This document shows positions 28,009-54,331 of a stretch of 64,000 bases of DNA, in pieces. The notes below the pieces were generated by a model. The model did no database searches. It worked only from the letters and a program-made list of their open reading frames with translations, and was not told the DNA's origin. The translations under genes were made by a program, and so were the position numbers. Within the stretch, counting starts at the first letter, position 1; each line of letters begins with the position of its first letter. This stretch comes from Candidatus Firestonebacteria bacterium RIFOXYD2_FULL_39_29 (GTDB taxonomy: Bacteria > Oederibacteriota > D2-FULL-39-29), in NCBI GenBank assembly GCA_001778375.1, contig MFGV01000061.1, positions 1-64,000 on the forward strand, read 5' to 3'.

Positions 28009-29376
28009 TTAGTAGAAAATATCTCTTTTTCCTTTCTTAATTTCCGTCAGTCCTTCTTTCACCCTTGTGAGCAATACCGGGTTTTCTATTTTTTTCGTGT
28101 AATAGTCTATAACCTTGTATCCGTCCTCTTTTAATTTATTTGAGGCAAAATCCTCGAGGTATTCGGCAAAGGTGAGCAAACCGTTTGTGCGGCAAAAAGT
28201 GTGAATTTCTCCGGGCTTTGACAGATACATAAAATCTTCTCCCGTCCGTCCCAGCCTGTAGCAGGCTGTACAGAAAGAAGGTAACAGCTTGTCCGCCAAA
28301 GCATCTTTTATGACCTCTTCAAGGCTTCTCGGGTCGTGAGAGGTAAATTGCACCGAATCTGTCTGATTGCCGTATCCTCCCGTAGAAGTGACAGAAGCCG
28401 CGGAAGTCTGGGAAATGCCTATCTTAAATGCCTTTCTTCTAATCTCGGGAGTTTCCCGTGTTGAAATTATCATGCCGGTATATGGGACGGAAAGTCTGAG
28501 TATGGCGATTATCTTTAAAAAATCATCATCTGAAACAGGATATTCCGGAGAGTATTTTACCGTCGGCGCTTCACAAAGACGGGGTACAGATATAGTATGC
28601 GGTCCGACGCCTCCGACCTTATCCATATGCTCTGCGTGAGCAATAAGACCGAGAACTTCGAACTTCCAGTCATAAAGCCCGAAGAGAACACCAAGCCCCC
28701 GGTCATCAATTCCCGCTTCCAGAGCTCTGTCGTGCGCGGTTAACTGCCTGTCATAATCAGCTTTTGGGCCTTTATGCAGTTTTGCATAAGTAGGCCTGTG
28801 ATATGTTTCCTGAAAAAGCTGGTAAGTCCCGATATTCGCGGCTTTTATTTTTTTGTAATTTTCCACAGTAGTCGCGGCAATATTTACATTGACCCTGCGA
28901 ATGTTACCTTTTTCGGTTTTAACTTTATAAATTTCGTTTATTACATCAACGACATACTCTATGGGATTTTCTTTTTTATCTTCTCCGAATTCCAGCAGAA
29001 CTCTCTTGTGCCCCATATTAATAAGTATCTTTACCTGCTCTCTTACCTGTTCCAGCGTAAGCTTACTTCTCTTTAGACCTTTATTTGTCTGATGAAAATT
29101 ACAATAGGCACAATCATTCATGCAATAATCCGAAACATAAAGAGGTGCAAAGAAAACAAGACGTTCGCCGTAGATCTCTTCTTTTATTTTAGCAGCAGTA
29201 TCAAACATCTCTTTAAGAAGCCGGGGCTCAGTAAGATTAATAAGAACTCCCACCTCTTCAAGGTTCAAACCTTTTCTTTCCTTTGCCTTGTTAATTACAT
29301 TTTGCACTATTTTTATGTCAGGCTCTTTCGTTTTTTCCAAAACCTTAAGTATTCTTACTTCATCAATAATGTTCAT
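28009..29376 (-). CDS. hydG: [FeFe]-hydrogenase maturase HydG (tyrosine lyase)
   Basis: 455 residues. The radical SAM cluster motif is CX3CX2C (C85, C89, C92). The C-terminal auxiliary cluster motif is CX2CX22C in CTACYRLGRTGEDFM...HTFC. The second motif separates HydG from ThiH. HydG cleaves tyrosine to supply CO, CN- and an Fe-Cys synthon for the H-cluster. The client enzymes are the two HydA proteins in this window. Its ATG overlaps the stop of the ThiF-like gene by one base (TAATG). It ends beside the inverted repeat at 27974-28005. Confidence 0.96.
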   Translation of the reverse strand: MNIIDEVRILKVLEKTKEPDIKIVQNVINKAKERKGLNLEEVGVLINLTEPRLLKEMFDTAAKIKEEIYGERLVFFAPLYVSDYCMNDCAYCNFHQTNKGLKRSKLTLEQVREQVKILINMGHKRVLLEFGEDKKENPIEYVVDVINEIYKVKTEKGNIRRVNVNIAATTVENYKKIKAANIGTYQLFQETYHRPTYAKLHKGPKADYDRQLTAHDRALEAGIDDRGLGVLFGLYDWKFEVLGLIAHAEHMDKVGGVGPHTISVPRLCEAPTVKYSPEYPVSDDDFLKIIAILRLSVPYTGMIISTRETPEIRRKAFKIGISQTSAASVTSTGGYGNQTDSVQFTSHDPRSLEEVIKDALADKLLPSFCTACYRLGRTGEDFMYLSKPGEIHTFCRTNGLLTFAEYLEDFASNKLKEDGYKVIDYYTKKIENPVLLTRVKEGLTEIKKGKRDIFY

Positions 29377-30113
29377 TATTTTTCCTTCCCGCAGACTTTG
29401 CAGAGTAAATTTCTTTTTAATATAACCTTACGAAACTCTTGTTTTAATCCGTCCCAAGTTAAAAGTTCGCTGTTCAAATTCCCGCCGGCTCCGGAAAGAT
29501 ATTTTACCGCTTCCATAGCCTGAAGTGAGCCGATAACTCCGGGCGTTGCTCCGAGTACAGGGAATATTCCTTTTACCGGCAAGCCTTCAAATATACAAGC
29601 AAGACAAAAACTTTTTCCCGGTCTGATAAACGCCAGCTGTCCAAAGAAACCGTATATCGCGCCAAACAACAGGGGCTTTTTCTTTTTAACAGCATAGGCG
29701 TTGAGAAGGAACCTTGTTTCAAAATTATCCAAACAGTCAAGGAGAATGTCGGCTTTTTTTACATATTTATCTATGTTCGCACCGGTTATTCTTTCAGTAA
29801 CCGCTTCTATTTTAATATTACTGTTTAAAGCTTCCAAGGTGATCTTGGCAGAGAGTGCTTTGTTTTTTCCTATCCTTTTCATTCCATGTAGTACCTGACG
29901 GTTAAGATTAGAAAGCTCTACCTTATCAGCATCAGCTATTATGATCCGCCCAACTCCTGCTCCGGCAAGATAAAAAGCAGCAGAACTCCCAAGACCGCCC
30001 GCGCCGACCATAAAAACGGTTGATTTTTTAAGCCTTTTTTGCCCTTTTTCCCCAAAAAGCAAAATCTGCCGCTTATATATTTCTTTTTCAGATGATGATA
30101 AAGTTGTTCTCAT
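29376..30113 (-). CDS. ThiF/MoeB/HesA-type E1-like adenylyltransferase
   Basis: 245 residues. The nucleotide-binding start is VGAGGLGSSAAFYLAGAGVG (about 32-51), followed by DADKVELSNLNRQVLH, typical of ThiF/MoeB. Two CxxC pairs (CLAC about 172, CKVC about 238) supply the structural zinc. Such enzymes adenylate the C-terminal Gly of a ubiquitin-like protein (ThiS, MoaD). No such partner is in the window. The one-base overlap with hydG suggests tight co-expression. It may serve thiamine or molybdopterin synthesis, or have a role in H-cluster assembly; the sequence does not decide. The transcript may be leaderless (promoter 30122-30151). Confidence 0.85.
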   Translation of the reverse strand: MRTTLSSSEKEIYKRQILLFGEKGQKRLKKSTVFMVGAGGLGSSAAFYLAGAGVGRIIIADADKVELSNLNRQVLHGMKRIGKNKALSAKITLEALNSNIKIEAVTERITGANIDKYVKKADILLDCLDNFETRFLLNAYAVKKKKPLLFGAIYGFFGQLAFIRPGKSFCLACIFEGLPVKGIFPVLGATPGVIGSLQAMEAVKYLSGAGGNLNSELLTWDGLKQEFRKVILKRNLLCKVCGKEK

Positions 30114-30652: not shown

Positions 30653-31720
30653 CTATTTATAACACTGGCTGTCTTCGGCCAGATAGTCCAGGGATAAACT
30701 GTATGCCAGAGCCGGGCAGCCGCGGCAGTCTAAATATTCACATTCTTTGCACTTTCCCTTCTTAAGTCCGGTCATAATATTATTAAGCACCGTAGATTCA
30801 ATTATCTTTTCAAGCGGTTCCTTTAATATATTGCCGATCTTTAAACCAAACCTGCGGCAAGGATAAACATCAGCGCTCGGCATAATACAGAAGTTATTCT
30901 TTCCTATGTTGCATTCCGCTCCGGAAAGTTCGATCTTTCCGTCCTTTAATATTTCTATCCAAAAAGCTCTCCAATCGTATATATCCGGTTTGCTCTGCTT
31001 TTCTCCAGAAAGATCCAGCATTGTTTCAACAAGTTCTTTCCATTCATTTTTGTTTAAGACCTCTTTTTTTATTTTACGGCCCTCTCCCATAGGAATAAAT
31101 CTTTCTATTATCAAGCCGTCTGCTTTTATTTTCCGGCATAATTTCACAAGCTCCAAAACATCGGACAGGTTTGATTTCATCACGGTAAACATTACCGTGA
31201 CAGGAATACCGTTCTTAATAAGCATTTCAATAGCTTTAACTGCTTTATCAAAAGAACCTTTTCCTCTGATTGAATCATTTACGGAAGGTACAGCTGACTC
31301 AAGAGAAACCTTAATACCCGAGAGTTTTCTCATGGATTTTAATCTGTTGATAGTTTCAAGATCAATAAGCATTCCATTCGTTATAATGATGTATTCCCGT
31401 ACTTCTTTTAATGAATCAAGATAAGCACAAAGCGGGAATAATTCTTTTTTTAGAAAAGGTTCTCCGCCGGTAATATTGTAAACAATATCAATTTCTTTTC
31501 TTGCAGCCGTAGAAGAAACAGAATCTGCAATCTGCTTTAAACTATCTATATCAAGTTCTTTATCCGCCGTGTAAATGTCCTGATAACAATGCTTGCACCT
31601 CAAATTACAAACATTTGTTATATGCCATTGAAAATATAACTCTCCGGATTTATCCTCCTTGAAAGATTGGCGGACAGGCTGCTCAGAGTTTTGACGATAG
31701 GAAGATATTTTATCACTCAT
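30653..31720 (-). CDS. Radical SAM/SPASM-type protein
   Basis: 355 residues. The radical SAM motif is CNLRCKHC (CX3CX2C, about 38-45), with ITGGEPFL (about 92). The C-terminus carries a SPASM-like cluster region: CNIGKNNFCIMPSADVYPC and CKECEYLDCRGCPA. SPASM enzymes modify peptides, carry out anaerobic sulfatase-type chemistry, or act in cofactor synthesis. No precursor peptide is obvious. It lies between hydG-thiF and hypB on the same strand, so a role in hydrogenase or cofactor maturation is possible but unproven. Residues about 9-22 are encoded by a dispersed repeat, and the ATG lies at the edge of another; the true N-terminus may have been replaced. Confidence 0.82.
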   Translation of the reverse strand: MSDKISSYRQNSEQPVRQSFKEDKSGELYFQWHITNVCNLRCKHCYQDIYTADKELDIDSLKQIADSVSSTAARKEIDIVYNITGGEPFLKKELFPLCAYLDSLKEVREYIIITNGMLIDLETINRLKSMRKLSGIKVSLESAVPSVNDSIRGKGSFDKAVKAIEMLIKNGIPVTVMFTVMKSNLSDVLELVKLCRKIKADGLIIERFIPMGEGRKIKKEVLNKNEWKELVETMLDLSGEKQSKPDIYDWRAFWIEILKDGKIELSGAECNIGKNNFCIMPSADVYPCRRFGLKIGNILKEPLEKIIESTVLNNIMTGLKKGKCKECEYLDCRGCPALAYSLSLDYLAEDSQCYK

Positions 31721-32643: not shown

Positions 32644-32994
32644 CTATTCTCCTTCAATACCGCTGATTATCAACTCATTTCCCTCTTTGATCTTCATTTC
32701 TTTTTTACCGCATTTAACACACTTTAACACAATATTTTCCGGGATTTTGACAATAATTTCATTGCCGCAAACCGAACATTTAATCTTTAATTTTATTGCG
32801 CATACCCTTATTTTTACATTTTTAAAAAGCTCTTCCTTACCAAGCATTTTAAATGCATCTGTGAGAAGTTCTGAAACAACATTTCTTAAAATTCCGACTT
32901 TTAATCTGATAACCTTTAACTTTTTTATTCCATTCTTTTTGCATTCTTTTCTTAAAACACCCGCTATCGAGGTTACCAGTGAAAGTTCGTGCAT
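32644..32994 (-). CDS. hypA: Hydrogenase nickel-insertion protein HypA
   Basis: 116 residues. It begins MHELSL (the conserved nickel-binding M-H-E). The zinc site is two CxxC pairs (CSVCGN about 75, CVKCGK about 92). It delivers nickel with HypB. Its start overlaps the stop of the HypC-HydE fusion by one base, so all three are one transcript. Confidence 0.95.
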   Translation of the reverse strand: MHELSLVTSIAGVLRKECKKNGIKKLKVIRLKVGILRNVVSELLTDAFKMLGKEELFKNVKIRVCAIKLKIKCSVCGNEIIVKIPENIVLKCVKCGKKEMKIKEGNELIISGIEGE

Positions 32995-34175
32995 CAGACT
33001 AACCCTATATCCGTAGGCGCTCGTCCTATTGATTCAAGGAGTTTCAGGACTTCCTTTATCCGGTCTTCCACAGTCTGTTCCATCCCTTTTCTCCCGGGAT
33101 ATATCTCGTAGTGATCCCGGTACTTTTCCGGGGTAAGGTTAATCATTAAAGAATTTGCTCCGGACATCAAACCTTTTTTTGCCCCTCCCTTTTTATCAAG
33201 CGTTTCCAGGGCAGTGGTCACCACTATCTTTGACTCCGGGTAAAGAATCCTTGCCCGGGCTATTACAGTGAGTACCTCGTCAAGCGTGGGGATTCTTTCC
33301 TTGGAAAGAGGAGTCCCTTTATGAGGTATAAAAGGACCGAAGGAGAACATTTCCGGATTTATATCACCTGTCAGCCTGATATCATCCATAAGGTCATGCT
33401 CAGTCTGGCCGGGAAGGCCTATCAAAAATCCAGATATTACCAAGTATCCCAGCTCTTTAAGTTTGTTTATCAGCGCAAGTCTGTCTTTGAGTTTCTTACC
33501 TTCCTTCATACTTTCGTAAATTTTCTCATTGGCTGTTTCAAACCTGATAAGTGCTGATTTGGCGCCCGCTTCGTAAAGGTTTTTGTAAACTGACACCGGC
33601 CGATCTCCGATACTTAAAACTATGAGAACACCGCACTTCTCTCTGATTCTTTTAACAAGCAGGAGAAGTTTTTCCTCGGTATACCAGGAATCTTCCCCGG
33701 ATTGAAGCACAAGCGCTTTAAAACCAAGCTTGTTGACTGCATTGTCCGCCTGTTTTACAATCTCCTCGATAGTCATACGATAGCGCTTTACTTCCTTATT
33801 ATTTTTTCTTATCCCGCAATACATACAATCGCAGGTGCAGTAATTGGAAAATTCTATTATACCGTGCACGCAGCAGGAATTATCCTGATGTTTTTGCCTG
33901 GTGGCGTTAGCAATCTGGTAGAGCGTTTTTGGTTCCCGGGCAAGACGGAGATCCTTTTCTTTCAGCTTAAGAAATACTTCTTTCCAATTCTGAAGCAAAA
34001 TTTCCGCCTCTTTCACCTCCACGGTGGAAACAATAAATCCCCCCTGAGCATAAACATACTGTCCGGGCGTAAGCTCATAGAACTCATTCTTGGCTTTCCT
34101 GATCTCGCCAAAGTATTCGACGGTGACCATTTTACCGTCTATTTTTAAAACCTTACCGGGTATGGAGTAACACAT
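32994..34175 (-). CDS. HypC-HydE fusion: [NiFe] chaperone joined to [FeFe] radical SAM maturase
   Basis: About 393 residues from the ATG at 34175 (MCYSIPGK, with GAGG 6 bases upstream). The longer frame from 34208 would bury the essential Cys2. Residues 1 to about 60 are HypC: Cys2 in MCYSIPGKVL, a beta-barrel, and GQYVYAQGGF followed by an acidic helix. The conserved HypC histidine (VLVHVGF in E. coli) appears as Gln44. Residues about 62-393 are HydE: IIEFSNYC, then CX3CX2C (C113, C117, C120) followed by GIRKNNKEVKRYRMT, VLQSGED and GFLIGLPGQTEHD. HypC carries the Fe(CN)2CO unit for [NiFe] enzymes; HydE makes a precursor of the [FeFe] H-cluster. No separate hypC or hydE is in the window. Followed by hypA and hypB. 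Confidence 0.92.
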   Translation of the reverse strand: MCYSIPGKVLKIDGKMVTVEYFGEIRKAKNEFYELTPGQYVYAQGGFIVSTVEVKEAEILLQNWKEVFLKLKEKDLRLAREPKTLYQIANATRQKHQDNSCCVHGIIEFSNYCTCDCMYCGIRKNNKEVKRYRMTIEEIVKQADNAVNKLGFKALVLQSGEDSWYTEEKLLLLVKRIREKCGVLIVLSIGDRPVSVYKNLYEAGAKSALIRFETANEKIYESMKEGKKLKDRLALINKLKELGYLVISGFLIGLPGQTEHDLMDDIRLTGDINPEMFSFGPFIPHKGTPLSKERIPTLDEVLTVIARARILYPESKIVVTTALETLDKKGGAKKGLMSGANSLMINLTPEKYRDHYEIYPGRKGMEQTVEDRIKEVLKLLESIGRAPTDIGLV

Positions 34176-37690: not shown

Positions 37691-40600
37691 TTATTCCGCC
37701 TCCTTTTTGTCGCACCTTAAACATCTGTCTGCCTCTTCCATCGCCTGACTCTTTCCATACCCGAGGTCAACTTCCGTAAAAGCCTGTAATCTTTTTTCCA
37801 TACTCAGCTGCGCGTGTTTTATTCTGCATTTTTCTTTTACATCTTTGGAAGGGTCAATATATTCCACAGCTTTTCTTTCTCCCTTTATCACATACCTGTC
37901 TTTAAATAAATCTTCATTTTTCAAGTACCTGTCGATTGAAGTTGCGGCTTTTTCCCCGTCAGCAACCGAATCTATTACCGTTCCTCCTCCCGTAACAACA
38001 TCCCCGCCTGCAAAAACACCTTCAATATTTGTTGTAAATACTCCGGGATCCGCAGAAAGCGTGCCCCAGTCTGTCATAGCCAGATCATCCTTTAGAAGTT
38101 CGGCTCCCGAAGGCCTGCCGCCAATCGCGCTTATTACGATATCAACAGGAAGGTTAAACGTATCCTTAGTCGCAACAGGACGTCTTCTGCCGGAGGCATC
38201 AAAGTCTCCCGGTTTTGTATGCAGACACTCAAGCTCGGTAATTTTTCCGTTCTTTCCCTTAATGGCATTTGGTATTAAAAGAAAATGGAGTTTTGCACCT
38301 TCTTTTTCACACTCGGAAACTTCCTCGGGAATTGCAGGCATATCTGACTTATCTCTTCTATATACAACATGAACCTCGGAAGCCCCAAGCCTTAGACACG
38401 TTCTTGCCACATCCATGGCCGCATTACCTCCGCCAACTACAGCAACCCGCTTTCCGGTAACCGCAATATTATGTTCTTTATCAAGAATTATTGAGTACAC
38501 ACCTTTGATTTTCTTGATTTTTTCTGTGTTATAATTTTTCAGGAAAGAAAGAGAACCCATAAAACCAAGCAGGTCCGTACCGTGAATCTTCAAGGGTACT
38601 TCTTTCCAGGCTCCGATAGCTAAAAACACGGCTTTAAACCCTTTTGCTTTGAGCTCTTTCAGGGAGATGTCTTTTCCAAAGGTCACTCCAGTTTTAATCT
38701 TTACTCCTGCATCTTTTATTCTATTTATATCCCGCTCGACTATATCTTTCGGAAGCCTATATTCAGGAATGCCGATTCGGAGCATTCCGCCGGCAACTTT
38801 TTCAGATTCATAAATCGTCACCTGATACCCGCGCTTTGCAAGGTGATAGGCGCAGGATAAGCCCGCAGGCCCGCTGCCTACTACGGCAACAGATTCCTTC
38901 AGCATTTTTCCTTTATATTTTTCAACTTTTACATCCTTATCTCCTGCGGTATAATCTGCGGCAAATCTTTTAAGCATCATAATCGACACGGGATCTTCAA
39001 TTTTACCCCTTCTACAATTAGATTCGCAGGGGTGATGACAGACTCTTCCGCAAACAGAGGGCAGAGGATTTCTCTTTAAAATAAGTTCTATACTCTCTTT
39101 AATTTTGCCTTCGCGAATATTTCCAATAAAACCCGGTATATCAATATTCACAGGACAAGTATGCTGGCAGGGAGAAACAAAAAGCTCTCCGCAAACAGCT
39201 GATTTACACTTTCTATCTTTAATATGCGATTCATACTCTTCCCTGAAATATTTTATCGTAGAAAGTACCGGGTTTGGAGCAGTCTGACCCAAACCGCAAA
39301 GAGCTGTCTTCTTTATTGTATTCCCAAGTTTTTCAAGTTTTTCGATATCCCCTTCTTTCCCCTCGCCCTTCGTAATCCGTTCAAGAATTTCCAACATTCT
39401 TTTGGTGCCTTCCCTGCAGGGAGTACATTTGCCGCAGGATTCGTCCTGTGTAAATTCAAGGAAAAACTTTGCAACATCCACCATACAATCTTTTTCGTCC
39501 ATGACTATAAGACCGCCGGATCCCATAATAGAACCGGCAGAAATTAAAGAATCATAATCAATAGGAGTGTTCAAAAATTTTGTCGGTAAACATCCGCCGG
39601 AAGGACCTCCGGTTTGGGCCGCCTTATACTTTGTTCCGTCTTTCGTCCCTCCGCCAATGTCAAAAACCACTTCACCTAAAGACGTACCCATGGGAACTTC
39701 CACGAGTCCCGTATTCTTAATCTTTCCCGCAAGCGCAAACACTTTGGTACCTTTGCTTTTTTCGGTACCTATTGATGCAAAATAATCAGAACCATCAAGA
39801 ATAATTACAGGGATATTTGCCCACGTCTCTACATTGTTAATGAGCGTAGGCCTTCCCCATAAACCCTTTACAGCGGGGAAAGGCGGCCTGGTACGGGGCA
39901 TACCGCGCATTCCCATAATTGAATTTATAAGAGCGGTTTCTTCTCCGCAGACAAAAGCCCCCGCACCCAAAACAATCTCTATGTCAAAGGAGAAATTGCT
40001 CCCGAGAATATTTTTACCAAGCAGGTTTTTATTTTTAGCATCAATAATAGCTTTTTTAAGCCTTTCCACGGCAAGCGGATATTCGGCGCGGATATAGACG
40101 ATACCCTGAGAGGCTCCGACGGCAAAACCTCCTACAGTCATTGCTTCAAGTACACTATACGGATCCCCCTCAATAACACTTCTGTCCATAAATGCGCCCG
40201 GATCACCCTCATCTGCATTACATATAACATATTTAATGTCAGACTGCTGTTTAGCAACGAAGGTCCATTTTGTACCGGTAGGAAAACCCCCTCCGCCTCT
40301 GCCTCTGAGGCCGGATTTAATAATTTCATCAATAACTTTATCCGGAGCATATTCTACAAGTACTTTTGCAAGAGCTTCATACCCTCTGACAGAAAGATAA
40401 TCATCCAGGGATTCCGGATCTATTACCCCGCAGTTACGGAGTGCCATTCTTTTTTGCTTCTTAAAATAATCAATATCTCCGAAAATGTAATTTGACTTAC
40501 CCGTAAGAATATTAGAGCTCGAAACATATCCTTTACCTTTACACTCTAAATGCACTGCACTGTTTTTCACCAGATGAGCCAGTACTATTTGTCTGGCTTT

Positions 40601-40888
40601 TTTAGCATCAACATTCTCGTATTTAAAGGGCTTTTTGCCGGCCTGAAATATTTCTATGGTAGGCTCGAGATGGCATCTTCCTACACAGCCCTTCTGCCCG
40701 ATATGAACATTTTTTATCTTCCTCTTCTTTATTTCATCTTTAATAGCCGTGTAAACACTTTTTGAGCCGGCGGCTATTTCACAGGTAGACATTCCGACAT
40801 TAATCCTGGTGTCGCAAAGCCACTTGGAAAGATTTTCGTGAAGCGCTTTTTGTTTCATTTTACTCAATTTTTCTATTGCATTACTCAT
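37691..40888 (-). CDS. Fused NuoF-like / GltD (NfnB)-like hydrogenase subunit
   Basis: 1065 residues. N-terminus (about 1-115): thioredoxin-like [2Fe-2S] domain (STCEIAAG, KGCVGRC). Middle (about 125-575): NuoF core, with FMN/NADH site [26 protein letters not shown] and [4Fe-4S] motif SCGKCTPCREGT. C-terminal half (about 580-1065): GltD/NfnB-type module with its Fe-S cysteines (CQHTCPVNIDIPGF, CGRVCHHPCESNCRRG), FAD site VVGSGPAGLSCAYHL and NAD(P)H site VVGGGNAAMDVART, ending GGDVVTGGGTVIDSVADG. The protein therefore has two flavin/nicotinamide sites. This suggests electron transfer between H2, ferredoxin, NAD(H) and NADP(H), possibly by bifurcation. Follows the sensor kinase gene directly (TAA-ATG). 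Confidence 0.92.
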   Translation of the reverse strand: MSNAIEKLSKMKQKALHENLSKWLCDTRINVGMSTCEIAAGSKSVYTAIKDEIKKRKIKNVHIGQKGCVGRCHLEPTIEIFQAGKKPFKYENVDAKKARQIVLAHLVKNSAVHLECKGKGYVSSSNILTGKSNYIFGDIDYFKKQKRMALRNCGVIDPESLDDYLSVRGYEALAKVLVEYAPDKVIDEIIKSGLRGRGGGGFPTGTKWTFVAKQQSDIKYVICNADEGDPGAFMDRSVIEGDPYSVLEAMTVGGFAVGASQGIVYIRAEYPLAVERLKKAIIDAKNKNLLGKNILGSNFSFDIEIVLGAGAFVCGEETALINSIMGMRGMPRTRPPFPAVKGLWGRPTLINNVETWANIPVIILDGSDYFASIGTEKSKGTKVFALAGKIKNTGLVEVPMGTSLGEVVFDIGGGTKDGTKYKAAQTGGPSGGCLPTKFLNTPIDYDSLISAGSIMGSGGLIVMDEKDCMVDVAKFFLEFTQDESCGKCTPCREGTKRMLEILERITKGEGKEGDIEKLEKLGNTIKKTALCGLGQTAPNPVLSTIKYFREEYESHIKDRKCKSAVCGELFVSPCQHTCPVNIDIPGFIGNIREGKIKESIELILKRNPLPSVCGRVCHHPCESNCRRGKIEDPVSIMMLKRFAADYTAGDKDVKVEKYKGKMLKESVAVVGSGPAGLSCAYHLAKRGYQVTIYESEKVAGGMLRIGIPEYRLPKDIVERDINRIKDAGVKIKTGVTFGKDISLKELKAKGFKAVFLAIGAWKEVPLKIHGTDLLGFMGSLSFLKNYNTEKIKKIKGVYSIILDKEHNIAVTGKRVAVVGGGNAAMDVARTCLRLGASEVHVVYRRDKSDMPAIPEEVSECEKEGAKLHFLLIPNAIKGKNGKITELECLHTKPGDFDASGRRRPVATKDTFNLPVDIVISAIGGRPSGAELLKDDLAMTDWGTLSADPGVFTTNIEGVFAGGDVVTGGGTVIDSVADGEKAATSIDRYLKNEDLFKDRYVIKGERKAVEYIDPSKDVKEKCRIKHAQLSMEKRLQAFTEVDLGYGKSQAMEEADRCLRCDKKEAE

Positions 40889-49909: not shown

Positions 49910-50377
49910 TTACAACAGCGCCGTTATTATTTTTGCTGTTTCCTTTACTATTCGTGGAAATAGTATACGTATTTCCTTGGATAACTCAAGCCCAAAAGAA
50001 GCATCGTCAGGTTGAACACCTATTATAACGATACTATCCGCCATATTCAAGCTTTTGGCAATTTCCAGAGTGTGGGTCAGGTTAAACCCGTGAGTAGAGC
50101 CGGAGGGACCTTCTATTTTGGTTATTATTTCCTCAGGTTTGAAGGCTTTTACCGTACCCAAAGGAAGCTTCATATCGGCAGCGTCAATTACGATGACTTT
50201 TACATCTTTTTCGAAATATTTTAATATATCAAGGCCGGATATGTCGCCGCACACCAGCCTTGCCTTTTTGCCAAATGACTTTTTCTTTTCAAAAACCTCG
50301 ACGATTCGTACCCCGAGTGCATCATCTTTCCGAAGTACACTGCCAATACCAATTATTACTGCCTTTTTTTCTTTCAC
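49910..50377 (-). CDS. [NiFe]-hydrogenase maturation endopeptidase
   Basis: 155 residues, HycI/HybD family: GIGSVLRKDDALGVRIVE (D18/D19 region), VIDAADM (about 61) and STHGFNL (His about 94) form the nickel-sensing metal site. It trims the C-terminus of the large subunit once nickel is in place. It overlaps the large-subunit gene by 4 bases, so the pair is dedicated. Confidence 0.93.
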   Translation of the reverse strand: MKEKKAVIIGIGSVLRKDDALGVRIVEVFEKKKSFGKKARLVCGDISGLDILKYFEKDVKVIVIDAADMKLPLGTVKAFKPEEIITKIEGPSGSTHGFNLTHTLEIAKSLNMADSIVIIGVQPDDASFGLELSKEIRILFPRIVKETAKIITALL

Positions 50378-51702
50378 ACAAATTTTATATCAAGCATATG
50401 GCAGGAGCAGGAAATACAGGGATCATAGGCTCTGATAAGCATCTCCGACTGAAGAGTAATTTCTTCTTTTGTTTTTTCCAGTATTTCAGGAATCATCTTC
50501 TTTAAATCATCATCCATATTTGAAAGATTCTGATTTGTCGGGATCACACAGTTTGCTTTTTCAATCATGCCTTTAGCATTTACCGTGTAGTCATGGAATA
50601 AAACACCTCTGGGAACTTCTACAGCTCCTACACCACGGCCCGCTTTAAATTTAAAAGATTCATTTTTCGAAGGCCAGCTGGAAACCACCTCGTCTTTATT
50701 GATACCTTTTTCCAGGAATTCGTCTATTATTTTTATAGCATCCTGCGCGCAAAAAAGCGTTTCTACCGCCTGAGCCACGGTATTCATGTAAGGATTGTAG
50801 CAGGGCGCTTTAAGTCCGAGTTGTGAGGCAAGATCACGGACGTTCTTTGGTAATTTCTCATGATTGATGTTGAACCTTGCCAGAGCACCGACCATGTAGG
50901 AGGTTCTCTTGTTCTTTGAATGTTTTGAAGTACAATGATCCGCATAATATTCATGAACAAACTCAAGGTATTTCTGCGGTGTAACCTCTCCGCCGTCGGA
51001 AGATTTCAGGTTACCGTCAAGGAATGCATATTCATCAGGATGAGATAAAGCCAGATATTCAGTTTCCCTCTCAAACTGCGGAAGTTTTAAAGTCTTGATA
51101 ACTTCCAGAGCTTTTCCATAATCAGCCGCCAGTTCCACAAGAAGCTCTTTGGATTTTTCCAGCTCTTTTCTGGTCGGAAGTTTTGTAAAACCACGGACCA
51201 CTAAAGTAATGGGGTGTGTATGCCGGCCGAGTAAGATATCACAAAGGTCGCTGCAGATTTTTTTTACTTTTAAAGCCAAAACTACAACTTCAGGATGCGT
51301 CTTTATCATCGGAAAGACGCTTTCCGCGCCAACGCAGTCAGGGGCAACCAGAAATAATATATGAAGGAGGTGGCTGTCCAGGGTTTCATAATGCAAAGCA
51401 AGCTTACGGAGTTTCCTTGTTTGTTCAGACGGCGTAAAACCTATGGCATCCTCGGTAGCTTTAATTGAAGCCAGACAATGTCCCGTGGAGCAAATCCCGC
51501 ATATTCTGGAAGTTATATGCTGGACTTCGAACATGGAGCGCCCTTTAACCATCTGCTCAAAAAACCTCGGCGCTTCAATAATATTAAGCTGACACTTTTC
51601 CAGCTTACCTTCCTTTACATTAATCACTATGTTTCCGTGCCCTTCCACGCGGGTAAGGTATTCTACATTAATATCAAGGTTCTTTTTTGTAATATTGCTC
51701 AT
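50374..51702 (-). CDS. hyhL: [NiFe]-hydrogenase large subunit (group 3b type, alpha)
   Basis: 442 residues. Motif L1 is RICGICSTGH (66-75); L2 is DPCISCSCH (427-435), so C68, C71, C429 and C432 bind Ni-Fe. Seven residues (MLDIKFV) follow H435 and would be removed by the protease. With the beta, gamma and delta genes in this order it matches archaeal-type sulfhydrogenases (hyhBGSL, NAD(P)-linked group 3b). It oxidises or evolves H2 in the cytoplasm. An extra Cys (C434) inside L2 is unusual. Confidence 0.95.
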   Translation of the reverse strand: MSNITKKNLDINVEYLTRVEGHGNIVINVKEGKLEKCQLNIIEAPRFFEQMVKGRSMFEVQHITSRICGICSTGHCLASIKATEDAIGFTPSEQTRKLRKLALHYETLDSHLLHILFLVAPDCVGAESVFPMIKTHPEVVVLALKVKKICSDLCDILLGRHTHPITLVVRGFTKLPTRKELEKSKELLVELAADYGKALEVIKTLKLPQFERETEYLALSHPDEYAFLDGNLKSSDGGEVTPQKYLEFVHEYYADHCTSKHSKNKRTSYMVGALARFNINHEKLPKNVRDLASQLGLKAPCYNPYMNTVAQAVETLFCAQDAIKIIDEFLEKGINKDEVVSSWPSKNESFKFKAGRGVGAVEVPRGVLFHDYTVNAKGMIEKANCVIPTNQNLSNMDDDLKKMIPEILEKTKEEITLQSEMLIRAYDPCISCSCHMLDIKFV

Positions 51703-52454
51703 TTATTCCCCTCCAGTTTGCACCCGTTGTAAAGGCTGAATTTATCTTTAAGCATTTCCACTGTTACTCCGTGTTTCTGCAGAATGTCAAGCTGGCCCTG
51801 CTTATTAATATCTTCCAGGAGACCCCTGCAGCTGTAGCAGGTGTTACCGTTACCGGTGCACCAGGCGCCGCAACCGGCTCTTGTTACGGGACCCATACAA
51901 ATCTGTCCTTTTTCGTAAAGGCAGACATTTTCTTTTAGTTTGCATTCCACGCAAACCGCATAATCCGGAACTTTGTAAAGCGCTCCGGCAAGCAATCCTT
52001 TTAGAACAGCCGCAAATTCATTAAGATTTATCGGACAGCCGTGAACATAGGCGTCTACTTTTACAACCTGGTCAACAGCGCGAATCAGACCGGTTTCTAA
52101 TTTATCCTTTCTGCCGGGGTAAACAGTTTCCAGCGCGGCCTTAACGGTGTGATTCCTCATTATCCCGTTAATACCTCCGGTACAGGCACAGGCCCCGTAA
52201 GCCACAAGTATCTTGGCTTTAGCTCTGATGTCTTTTAGCCTTTCCTCATCATGAGGCCTTGTTATAGAACCTTCAATAACGGCAACATCATAATCCTCAG
52301 ACCTTTCATGCATTACTTCTCTAAAATTCACAATGTCAATACTGTTTAGAATATCCAGCAGTGCCGTATTTAAATAGGTTAACTGGAGCTGACAGCCTTC
52401 GCAATCAGCAAAATCAAAAAACGCAACTCTTACTTTCTTTTTTGTCTCGCTCAT
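51699..52454 (-). CDS. hyhS: [NiFe]-hydrogenase small subunit (delta)
   Basis: 251 residues. The proximal cluster site is FADCEGCQLQLTYL (about 13-26) with GACACTGG and VHGCPINLNEF. The C-terminal part has many cysteines (CVECKLKENVC, GCGAWC, CYSCRGL) for further Fe-S clusters. No Tat signal, so the enzyme is cytoplasmic. It overlaps both neighbours by 4 bases. Confidence 0.94.
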   Translation of the reverse strand: MSETKKKVRVAFFDFADCEGCQLQLTYLNTALLDILNSIDIVNFREVMHERSEDYDVAVIEGSITRPHDEERLKDIRAKAKILVAYGACACTGGINGIMRNHTVKAALETVYPGRKDKLETGLIRAVDQVVKVDAYVHGCPINLNEFAAVLKGLLAGALYKVPDYAVCVECKLKENVCLYEKGQICMGPVTRAGCGAWCTGNGNTCYSCRGLLEDINKQGQLDILQKHGVTVEMLKDKFSLYNGCKLEGNK

Positions 52455-53302
52455 AGCGCGCCCTCCAATCCTTTTAGTTTGTCATAGCTGAATACAGGGC
52501 CGTCCTGACAGCAATAATATTTATTGATCTGGCAGTGTCCGCACTTTCCGACTCCGCATTTCATTCTTCTTTCGAGTGAAAGAAGAATCTGGTTTTCCGG
52601 AATATTTTTTTCCATTAATTTTAGGAGCACAAATTTATACATAATCGGCGGCCCGCAGACTATACTGTAGGTCTGTTTGACATCTATATCCACGCCGGGG
52701 ATAAGCTCGGTAATCAGACCAACATTGCCTTTCCAGTCAGGAGCGCCTTTATCAACAGTGCACCTGAAAGCAACATCCGTAAGCTTTGACCACTTTTCAA
52801 TCTCATCCATATAAAGCAGCTGAGAAGGCTCTTTACAGCCTAAGAGTATGGTTACCTTGCCAAAATCCTTCCTTTTATCTATTACAAAGTTAATAAGAGA
52901 TCTAAGCGGCGCAATTCCGAGTCCGCCGGCAATAAAAAGAAGATCCTTCCCTTTTAATTCATCAACAGGAAAACCGTGTCCAAAAGGGCCTCTAATACCG
53001 ATTTCGTCGCCTTCTTTCATTCCATGTAAAACCGTTGTAACCTTGCCGGCTTTTCTTACGCAAAGCTCAAAGTAGCCTTTCTGCGTAGGAGAAGAAGATA
53101 TGGAAATAGGCGCTTCGCCTATGCCGAGTAATGATACCTCCACAAACTGCCCCGGCCCGTGATGCAGCTCTTTTTTTCCTTCAAGCTCTATTTTAAACCA
53201 CTTCTCAGTCTCTGTCATCTGTCTTACTGAAATTATCTTCCCTGTCACAGGCTCGTATAAAGAAGCTTTTTTTTCTTTTTCCAGCACAATATCATTTGCC
53301 AT
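52451..53302 (-). CDS. hyhG: Hydrogenase gamma subunit (FAD/NAD(P)H, FNR-like)
   Basis: 283 residues. An FAD-binding barrel (GPGQFVEVSLLGIGEAPISISSSP, split over about 50-75) is followed by a nucleotide-binding domain (FIAGGLGIAPLRSLI about 123) and a C-terminal [2Fe-2S] site (CGVGKCGHCQINKYYCC). It links the enzyme to NAD(P)H; homologues also serve sulfide dehydrogenase and dihydroorotate dehydrogenase, but the operon settles its role. Confidence 0.94.
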   Translation of the reverse strand: MANDIVLEKEKKASLYEPVTGKIISVRQMTETEKWFKIELEGKKELHHGPGQFVEVSLLGIGEAPISISSSPTQKGYFELCVRKAGKVTTVLHGMKEGDEIGIRGPFGHGFPVDELKGKDLLFIAGGLGIAPLRSLINFVIDKRKDFGKVTILLGCKEPSQLLYMDEIEKWSKLTDVAFRCTVDKGAPDWKGNVGLITELIPGVDIDVKQTYSIVCGPPIMYKFVLLKLMEKNIPENQILLSLERRMKCGVGKCGHCQINKYYCCQDGPVFSYDKLKGLEGAL

Positions 53303-53305
53303 AAA

Positions 53306-54331
53306 TTACTCCTTTACCAGATTGTTCATGGTTTCATAAAGGCTTATACTTGCCATACAAACCCTGGTACACCTGCCGCAGCCGGTGCAAAAGAATCTGT
53401 TATATTTTTCAACGGAATAACTGAATTTCCGGAGCAACCTGTGCTGCTGGCGGGTTTTCCTGTCTTTTCTGAAATTTTCTCCGCCTGCAACTTCGGCAAA
53501 TTCTTTTAACTGGCAGGAATCCCAAACCCTCGACCTTGTGCCTTTATCCAGGTTCAAATCAACATCATCCCTGACATCAAAACAGTAACATGTAGGGCAG
53601 ACGTTAGTACAGTTACCGCAGGAAACACAGCGGGCTTTAACACTCTCCCATTCCTTATGCTTTAAATTGCCGTCAAGCGTCTTTTTTAAATCTTCTGTTT
53701 TTACTTTAAGTTTTTTGGGCCACTTTTCTTTTTCCTGCCTCATTTGCATCAAACTTTCTTCAGATTTGACATCACTTTCTTTAAATAGAAATTTATATTC
53801 ATTTATAAGATTTTCGCCTTCGGTGGAATTTATCTGAACTATATATTTGCTTCCGGCCTCAGTAAGCATAAGATCAAAGCCGCCTTTTGGATTATGAGTA
53901 TCCATCGTTATACAGGTCGCGTGCTCATCGCAGGGTTTTGAACATTCAATACCGACAATTAATACATTCTTTTTTCTTTTATGAAAATTGGAATCCCTGG
54001 GCTCGATGGAAGATGCATGATCAAGGCATGTAACACCCGTAATATCACACGTGTGCGCTCCGAAGATAATAAGATTTTCTTTTATTACTTCCACCTGAGC
54101 TGCTTTTGCTTCCTTGAATTTAAAAGTCAAGAGCTGCTCTTCCTGGGGCAGATAGTATTTTTTAAGAGAAAGGATAGGCGGTTTATGCTCAAGCCTTAGC
54201 TCCTCTGCCTCCTCTATATCTCCGTACACAAAAAGATTTTCTTTTTCCTTAGGCCCCACTACCCGGTATTTCTTCTTTAGAGCATTTACGAGTTCGCTTA
54301 CTTTTGTTTTTTCCAGCAAATTGTATTTCAT
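53306..54331 (-). CDS. hyhB: Hydrogenase beta subunit (2x[4Fe-4S])
   Basis: 341 residues. Two [4Fe-4S] motifs, CVSCGNCTNVCPTCYC (about 231) and CTGCGRCTRVC (about 315), identify it as the beta subunit of sulfhydrogenase-type enzymes (related to anaerobic sulfite reductase subunit A). First gene of the operon; a promoter lies at 54406-54434. Confidence 0.93.
   Translation of the reverse strand: MKYNLLEKTKVSELVNALKKKYRVVGPKEKENLFVYGDIEEAEELRLEHKPPILSLKKYYLPQEEQLLTFKFKEAKAAQVEVIKENLIIFGAHTCDITGVTCLDHASSIEPRDSNFHKRKKNVLIVGIECSKPCDEHATCITMDTHNPKGGFDLMLTEAGSKYIVQINSTEGENLINEYKFLFKESDVKSEESLMQMRQEKEKWPKKLKVKTEDLKKTLDGNLKHKEWESVKARCVSCGNCTNVCPTCYCFDVRDDVDLNLDKGTRSRVWDSCQLKEFAEVAGGENFRKDRKTRQQHRLLRKFSYSVEKYNRFFCTGCGRCTRVCMASISLYETMNNLVKE

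Follow-up and report, generated by a model that had tools for sequence, protein, structure and literature searches.

A HypC–HydE fusion as the probable central maturase of a HypD-, HypE-, and HypF-independent route to the [NiFe] active site

A protein that joins a HypC domain to a HydE domain is probably the central maturase of a route to the [NiFe] active site that does not depend on HypD, HypE, and HypF. It was found in the window, i.e., the whole stretch of 64,000 nucleotides of DNA analyzed here. The comparison of genomes points to several unrelated bacterial groups using the fusion in place of HypD, HypE, and HypF, which would be an undescribed way to this metal site. The component families are known; the pathway that they form appears to be new. 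The replacement of HypCDEF by the fusion in [NiFe] maturation is strongly supported by genomics.

Architecture of the HypC–HydE fusion

The fusion is real and encoded by one ORF. The frame is single and unbroken, starting with an ATG at 34175 on the reverse strand with a GAGG 5′ of the start (Table 1). Pfam assigns residues 1–62 to HupF_HypC (E 3.7e-11, 43.4 bits versus a cut-off of 28.5) and residues 107–268 and 282–384 to Radical_SAM and BATS, respectively, both above their curated cut-offs. The NCBIfam equivalog model of HydE (TIGR03956) scores 267.2 bits with a cut-off of 254.6, and the NCBIfam model of HypC (TIGR00074) scores 34.6 bits, below its cut-off of 48. The joining of HypC to HydE in one protein, as claimed in an earlier note on this DNA, is thus confirmed, and Cys2, Gln44, and the CX3CX2C motif of the HydE part (C113, C117, and C120) lie exactly where that note had placed them. 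The best match among solved structures is HydE of Thermotoga maritima (e.g., 7o1o; 238 bits, residues 83–387), and residues 1–68 match HypC structure entries. An AlphaFold2 model built only from the window protein and its relative from locus L010 has a pLDDT of 37, too low for the model to be used.

This relative, from Candidatus Firestonebacteria RIFOXYA2_FULL_40_8, is 92% identical and was the one close relative returned by a contig search with the fusion protein alone; the distant fusions stem from whole-genome searches. Herein, a chimeric query was used that combined the fusion, HypD, HypE, two [NiFe] large subunits, the H-domain of HydA, and part of HypF. The search for the same domain architecture, which the earlier note had proposed, yielded 11 fusions from eight families (genomes G000, the window genome, G001, G059, G098, G099, G117, G133, G187, G282, G300, and G323) in at least two phyla. 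Since the fusion recurs as an open frame in 11 genomes, a frameshift, a chimera, an assembly error between the two parts, or a gap in a metagenome-assembled genome was rejected as its origin.

Table 1. Features of the window around the HypC–HydE fusion and the [NiFe] operon.
Feature	Position	Strand	Evidence and remarks
HydG, tyrosine lyase forming CO and CN	28009–29376	(−)	TIGR03955 541 bits; CX3CX2C and CX2CX22C
ThiF/MoeB-like adenylyltransferase directly before hydG	29376–30113	(−)	profiles; position conserved in family
Radical SAM/SPASM protein, 3′ of hypB	30653–31720	(−)	profiles; missing at this place in G002–G004
HypB, nickel-insertion GTPase, 224 aa	31966–32640	(−)	NCBIfam hypB 249 bits versus 121
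HypA, nickel metallochaperone, 116 aa	32644–32994	(−)	Pfam HypA 82 bits
HypC–HydE fusion, 393 aa	32994–34175	(−)	HypC 1–62 (Cys2, Gln44), linker ~63–82, radical SAM/BATS HydE ~83–387
HycI/HyaD-family maturation protease	49910–50377	(−)	TIGR00072 106 bits versus 47
[NiFe] large subunit, sulfhydrogenase-like group 3	50374–51702	(−)	L1 RICGIC, L2 DPCISC, short C-terminal tail
[NiFe] small subunit	51699–52454	(−)	
Two more [NiFe] group 3 subunits	52451–54331	(−)	ferredoxin-NADP reductase-like 52451–53302; beta, Fe-S 53306–54331; assigned by reading and BLAST against homologous operons

Gene neighborhood in the window

Going in the 3′ direction, the fusion is followed by hypA, hypB, the radical SAM/SPASM gene, the ThiF-like gene, and hydG, the only hydG of the window genome. 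The stop codon of the fusion and the ATG of hypA share one base (TGATG); hence, the two genes are probably translationally coupled. On the 5′ side lies the [FeFe] HydABC set and, 16 kb away from the fusion, the group 3 [NiFe] operon with its protease gene 3′ of the large subunit. The earlier note had described the fusion itself correctly and overlooked these surroundings, namely the adjoining hypA and hypB, the [NiFe] hydrogenase, and the missing hypDEF. A ThiF/MoeB-like gene occurs directly 5′ of hydG in five related genomes (seen in the window and in L075–L077). When the window is compared with L010 (4324–5358 for the two nickel genes), HypA (42% identity) and HypB (52%) diverge far more than the flanking HypC–HydE (92%) and HydG (91%), which suggests that just these two genes were replaced between the relatives. 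At 37691–40888, HydB (NuoF-like) is fused to a GltD-like Fer4_20/pyridine nucleotide oxidoreductase module to give 1065 aa, a fusion likewise present in L087 and L093.

The position of the cassette within the [FeFe] cluster, at a distance from the [NiFe] operon, is a point against a role in [NiFe] maturation. The fusion might instead be a second HydE for the H-cluster, with HypC as a carrier of Fe/CO/CN for HydE or HydF and the [NiFe] enzyme matured otherwise. The score of the HydE domain above the HydE cut-off and the location between the HydABC genes and HydG in both G000 and G001 speak for this reading, which is nevertheless very unlikely in view of the operons, the gene content, and the sequence signatures of the other fusion genomes.

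[NiFe] operons across the fusion genomes

Eight of the 11 fusions are part of a [NiFe] operon or lie next to one, a linkage that argues against a second HydE for the H-cluster. A common arrangement is large subunit–protease–short HypA–HypC-HydE. It is embedded in the order beta–FNR-like–small–large–HycI–short HypA–HypC-HydE in G133, G187, G323, and G282, where large subunit and fusion are spaced by 717–844 bp. Short HypA proteins of ~80 aa, without the zinc-binding half and with no HypB nearby, were found at L082 4794–5036, L083 11011–11253, L085 6057–6326, and L087 15159–15401. In G059, G098, and G099, the fusion is the first gene of a group 4 [NiFe] operon, whose 3′ end consists of HypA and HypB in G059 and G098; the contig of G099 ends early. 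The fusion of G300 is located 3′ of HypA and 2.3 kb from a group 4 large subunit on the opposite strand. In G117, the gene directly 5′ of the fusion is hydG, and an Mbh-like [NiFe] operon with HypA and protease is located on a different contig.

Cysteine-less relatives of [NiFe] subunits exist, NuoD of complex I being one. If the [NiFe]-like subunits of the fusion genomes were degenerate in the same manner and contained no Fe(CO)(CN) site, no HypCDEF would be needed. This is extremely unlikely, as both CxxC motifs (L1 and L2) are kept in 11/11 large subunits examined, and the proteases and HypA are kept as well.

Missing HypD, HypE, and HypF

The window genome is 96% complete; the fusion is its sole HypC, and a profile search found no HypD in it. 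Of its two HydE proteins, one is the fusion and the other, encoded on a separate contig (C5:51746), is canonical. A separate intact hydE together with a separate hypC, the fusion gene being unexpressed, had been named in the earlier note as evidence against its reading; herein, the separate canonical hydE is present and the separate hypC is not. The HypD profile was also negative in G001 and G059, and the HypF and HypE profiles gave nothing above the cut-off in G000, G001, G059, G098, and G099. The best scores in these five genomes were 37 bits for HypF and 65 bits for HypE, i.e., paralogue-sized, as opposed to 767–781 bits for HypF and 416–434 bits for HypE in the control genomes G010 and G051.

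Among 98 genomes, the 34 with a stand-alone HypC are the same 34 that have HypD above the cut-off, and HypD is missing from the three genomes whose HypC is fused (G000, G001, and G059). The chance of three HypD-negative genomes falling at random on the fused ones among the 37 genomes with HypC is 1/7770. G059 belongs to a phylum different from that of the window genome and is 99% complete; the fusion was found in all three genomes examined from its phylum.

A survey of 384 genomes revealed a distinct low-scoring group of HypC. Two genomes with low HypC scores, G121 and G170, were rejected as fusion genomes, not being fusions by the chimeric-query search. This single-sequence search gave no HypD or HypF rows and one HypC match each in 11/11 fusion genomes, with positive controls. 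For G117, G133, G187, G282, G300, and G323, the absence of HypD, HypE, and HypF refers to one query sequence per protein. Such a search could miss a divergent HypD, since the HypD query also gave no match in G170 (L092), although this genome has HypF (in addition to HypA, HypB, and a weak HypC match).

Most fusion genomes are draft assemblies, and G001 is 80% complete, which would fit the three proteins merely being missing from incomplete or mis-binned assemblies and the fusion being an accessory. We regard this as a most improbable explanation, because the absence recurs across independent genomes whose completeness reaches 99%, including G187 with its single contig of 2.27 Mb, and because the sets of genomes with HypC and HypD coincide exactly elsewhere.

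Co-occurrence with HydG and [FeFe] hydrogenase

HydG is present in 11/11 fusion genomes. G117 and G133 have the fusion, HydG, and a [NiFe] hydrogenase, and neither HydA nor canonical HydE gave a match in them at E ≤ 1e-6 in the single-sequence search. A canonical HydE separate from the fusion was found in all [FeFe]-bearing fusion genomes except G099, where none was seen. Both observations stand against a second HydE for the H-cluster. G002 (same genus) as well as G003 and G004 (same family) have the HydABC–ThiF–HydG block in common with G000, without the cassette of hypC-hydE, hypA, hypB, and the SPASM gene at that block. They retain canonical HydE and show no group 3 [NiFe] match; in G000 and G001, cassette and [NiFe] operon occur together.

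Sequence signatures and phylogeny

The HypC part scores 40–54 bits with PF01455 in 11/11 fusions (cut-off 28.5), and Cys2 is present in all of them (MCY[SA]IPG; with a GTG start in G187). The iron is coordinated by Cys2 of HypC and C41 of HypD, and H51 of HypC (Escherichia coli numbering) may be a further ligand; exchanging these residues eliminates the activity (PMC12134894). The histidine belongs to a motif H[A/V/T/I]G in 26/26 stand-alone HypC proteins examined, whereas all 11 fusions read YAQGG with a glutamine. Judged by sequence, this loss would fit a HypC that has ceased to cooperate with HypD, and the repurposing of the HypC part suspected in the earlier note is supported.

The HydE part retains CX3CX2C in 11/11 fusions. 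BATS was found in eight, twice below the curated cut-off, and TIGR03956 also falls short of 254.6 bits in G059 (232.9 bits) and G187 (249.6 bits). Residues that are invariant in the fusions only include Cys102, His104, Phe212, and Glu324; His104, nine residues before the first cluster cysteine, is an arginine in 12/12 canonical HydE proteins. In the tree, the fused HydE proteins form a clade of their own, supported at 100/100 (95/100 when BioB serves as outgroup), and do not group with the canonical HydE that these organisms also encode. Because they form one clade, the simplest reading is that the fusion arose once and then spread.

The differences at positions fixed in canonical HydE likewise argue against a second HydE for the H-cluster, and the fusion is very probably not mainly an [FeFe] protein. 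The earlier note had suggested a carrier that serves HydE in H-cluster assembly. More likely, the roles are reversed, because the fusion lies in [NiFe] operons, HypD, HypE, and HypF are missing, all [FeFe]-bearing fusion genomes but G099 have a separate canonical HydE, and two fusion genomes have no detected [FeFe] hydrogenase.

Proposed maturation pathway

Tyrosine is converted by HydG into [Fe(Cys)(CN)(CO)2]−, which HydE takes over and, through a radical addition, reduces to a di-iron product (PMC12752695). In [NiFe] maturation, Fe(CN)2CO can be carried on Cys2 of HypC, and in models with the large subunit, this cysteine is located in the NiFe pocket (PMC11565642). The chemistry that we infer for the HypC–HydE route combines these elements. 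First, HydG would cleave tyrosine to the Fe–CO–CN synthon by its known chemistry, put here to a new use. Second, the synthon would enter the HydE barrel of the fusion, which would handle it as a single iron unit, and SAM-radical chemistry, as in HydE itself, may free or re-ligate the iron. Third, the iron unit would move to the invariant Cys2 of the fused HypC, similar to Fe(CN)2CO in HypC–HypD. Fourth, by analogy with HypC, the HypC domain would dock on the apo large subunit and hand over the iron unit. Fifth, nickel would be supplied by HypA (and HypB where found), and a HycI-type protease, if present, would trim the C terminus; the genes for this last step are conserved.

One mismatch concerns stoichiometry. 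The HydG synthon has two CO and one CN, as opposed to one CO and two CN in the known Fe(CN)2CO of [NiFe] enzymes. Ligand exchange, use of the free CN of HydG, or an unusual ligand set in these enzymes could account for it. The mismatch would also fit a fusion that matures the [NiFe] enzyme with CO and CN of a different origin than HydG, be it free CO, another part of metabolism, or a cyanide producer that has escaped recognition, with HydE replacing the HypD scaffold only, and [FeFe] maturation also explains HydG in most fusion genomes. Such an origin is rather unlikely: G117 and G133, neither of which gave a HydA match, retain HydG, and in G117 it adjoins the fusion. HypE and HypF, the known source of CN in [NiFe] maturation, are absent by the profile and single-sequence searches. 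The known substrate of HydE is, moreover, the product of HydG (PMC12752695). With moderate confidence, we favor a radical-SAM origin of the Fe(CO)/(CN) half from tyrosine via HydG and the HypC-fused HydE, without carbamoyl phosphate or HypCDEF, in which two CO and one CN may be kept. The idea of the earlier note that the two pathways share the handling of Fe/CO/CN thereby gains support.

Relation to known systems

No published account of the fusion or of its route was found in the open-access literature searched, excluding bioRxiv, for HypC paired with HydE, HydG paired with HypD, HypCDEF substitutes, and HydE-like proteins in [NiFe] maturation. A paper on the maturation of acetogen hydrogenases was set aside as a prior description, as it deals with other gaps, and the text of a 2025 review mentions neither HydE and HydG nor radical enzymes (PMC12134894). 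The route bears on the open question of the source of the CO ligand for [NiFe] hydrogenases in anaerobes and makes tyrosine a directly testable source of CO and CN. The fusion would be a natural link joining both hydrogenase maturation pathways and may provide a compact set of maturases for producing [NiFe] enzymes heterologously.

The fusion shares with the HypC/HybG–HypD scaffold (PMC12134894, PMC11565642) the HypC fold and Cys2, which in that scaffold holds Fe(CN)2CO and can pass it to the large subunit, followed by HypA/HypB and a protease. However, the fusion systems have no HypD, HypE, or HypF, the HypC is covalently attached to a radical SAM enzyme, and H51 is replaced by glutamine. With HydE of T. 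maritima, the fusion has the radical SAM barrel, CX3CX2C, and BATS in common; it differs from canonical HydE by its separate clade, His104 in place of arginine, the invariant Cys102, the attached HypC, and the [NiFe] operon setting. HypX, an alternative source of CO in aerobes, is a comparable variation in the ligand supply to [NiFe] maturation. However, HypX makes CO only and is added to HypCDEF, whereas the fusion genomes do without HypDEF.

HydG, the CO- and CN-forming tyrosine lyase, has motifs of the SAM and auxiliary-cluster type in all fusion genomes, including the two in which it is retained without a detectable [FeFe] hydrogenase. The CX2CX22C motif is kept except in G117, G187, and G323, where the third cysteine is offset, resembling the known variant CX5CX19C. 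A second HydG-like protein with the auxiliary-cluster motif CTACYR is encoded at L068 7685–9058 (G059), L071 7976–9349, and L074 1509–2882. As the relevant HydG of G059, G098, and G099, it was set aside, being located in a thiamine cluster with ThiE upstream and ThiG/ThiC downstream, as read from the sequence; it apparently fills the role of ThiH.
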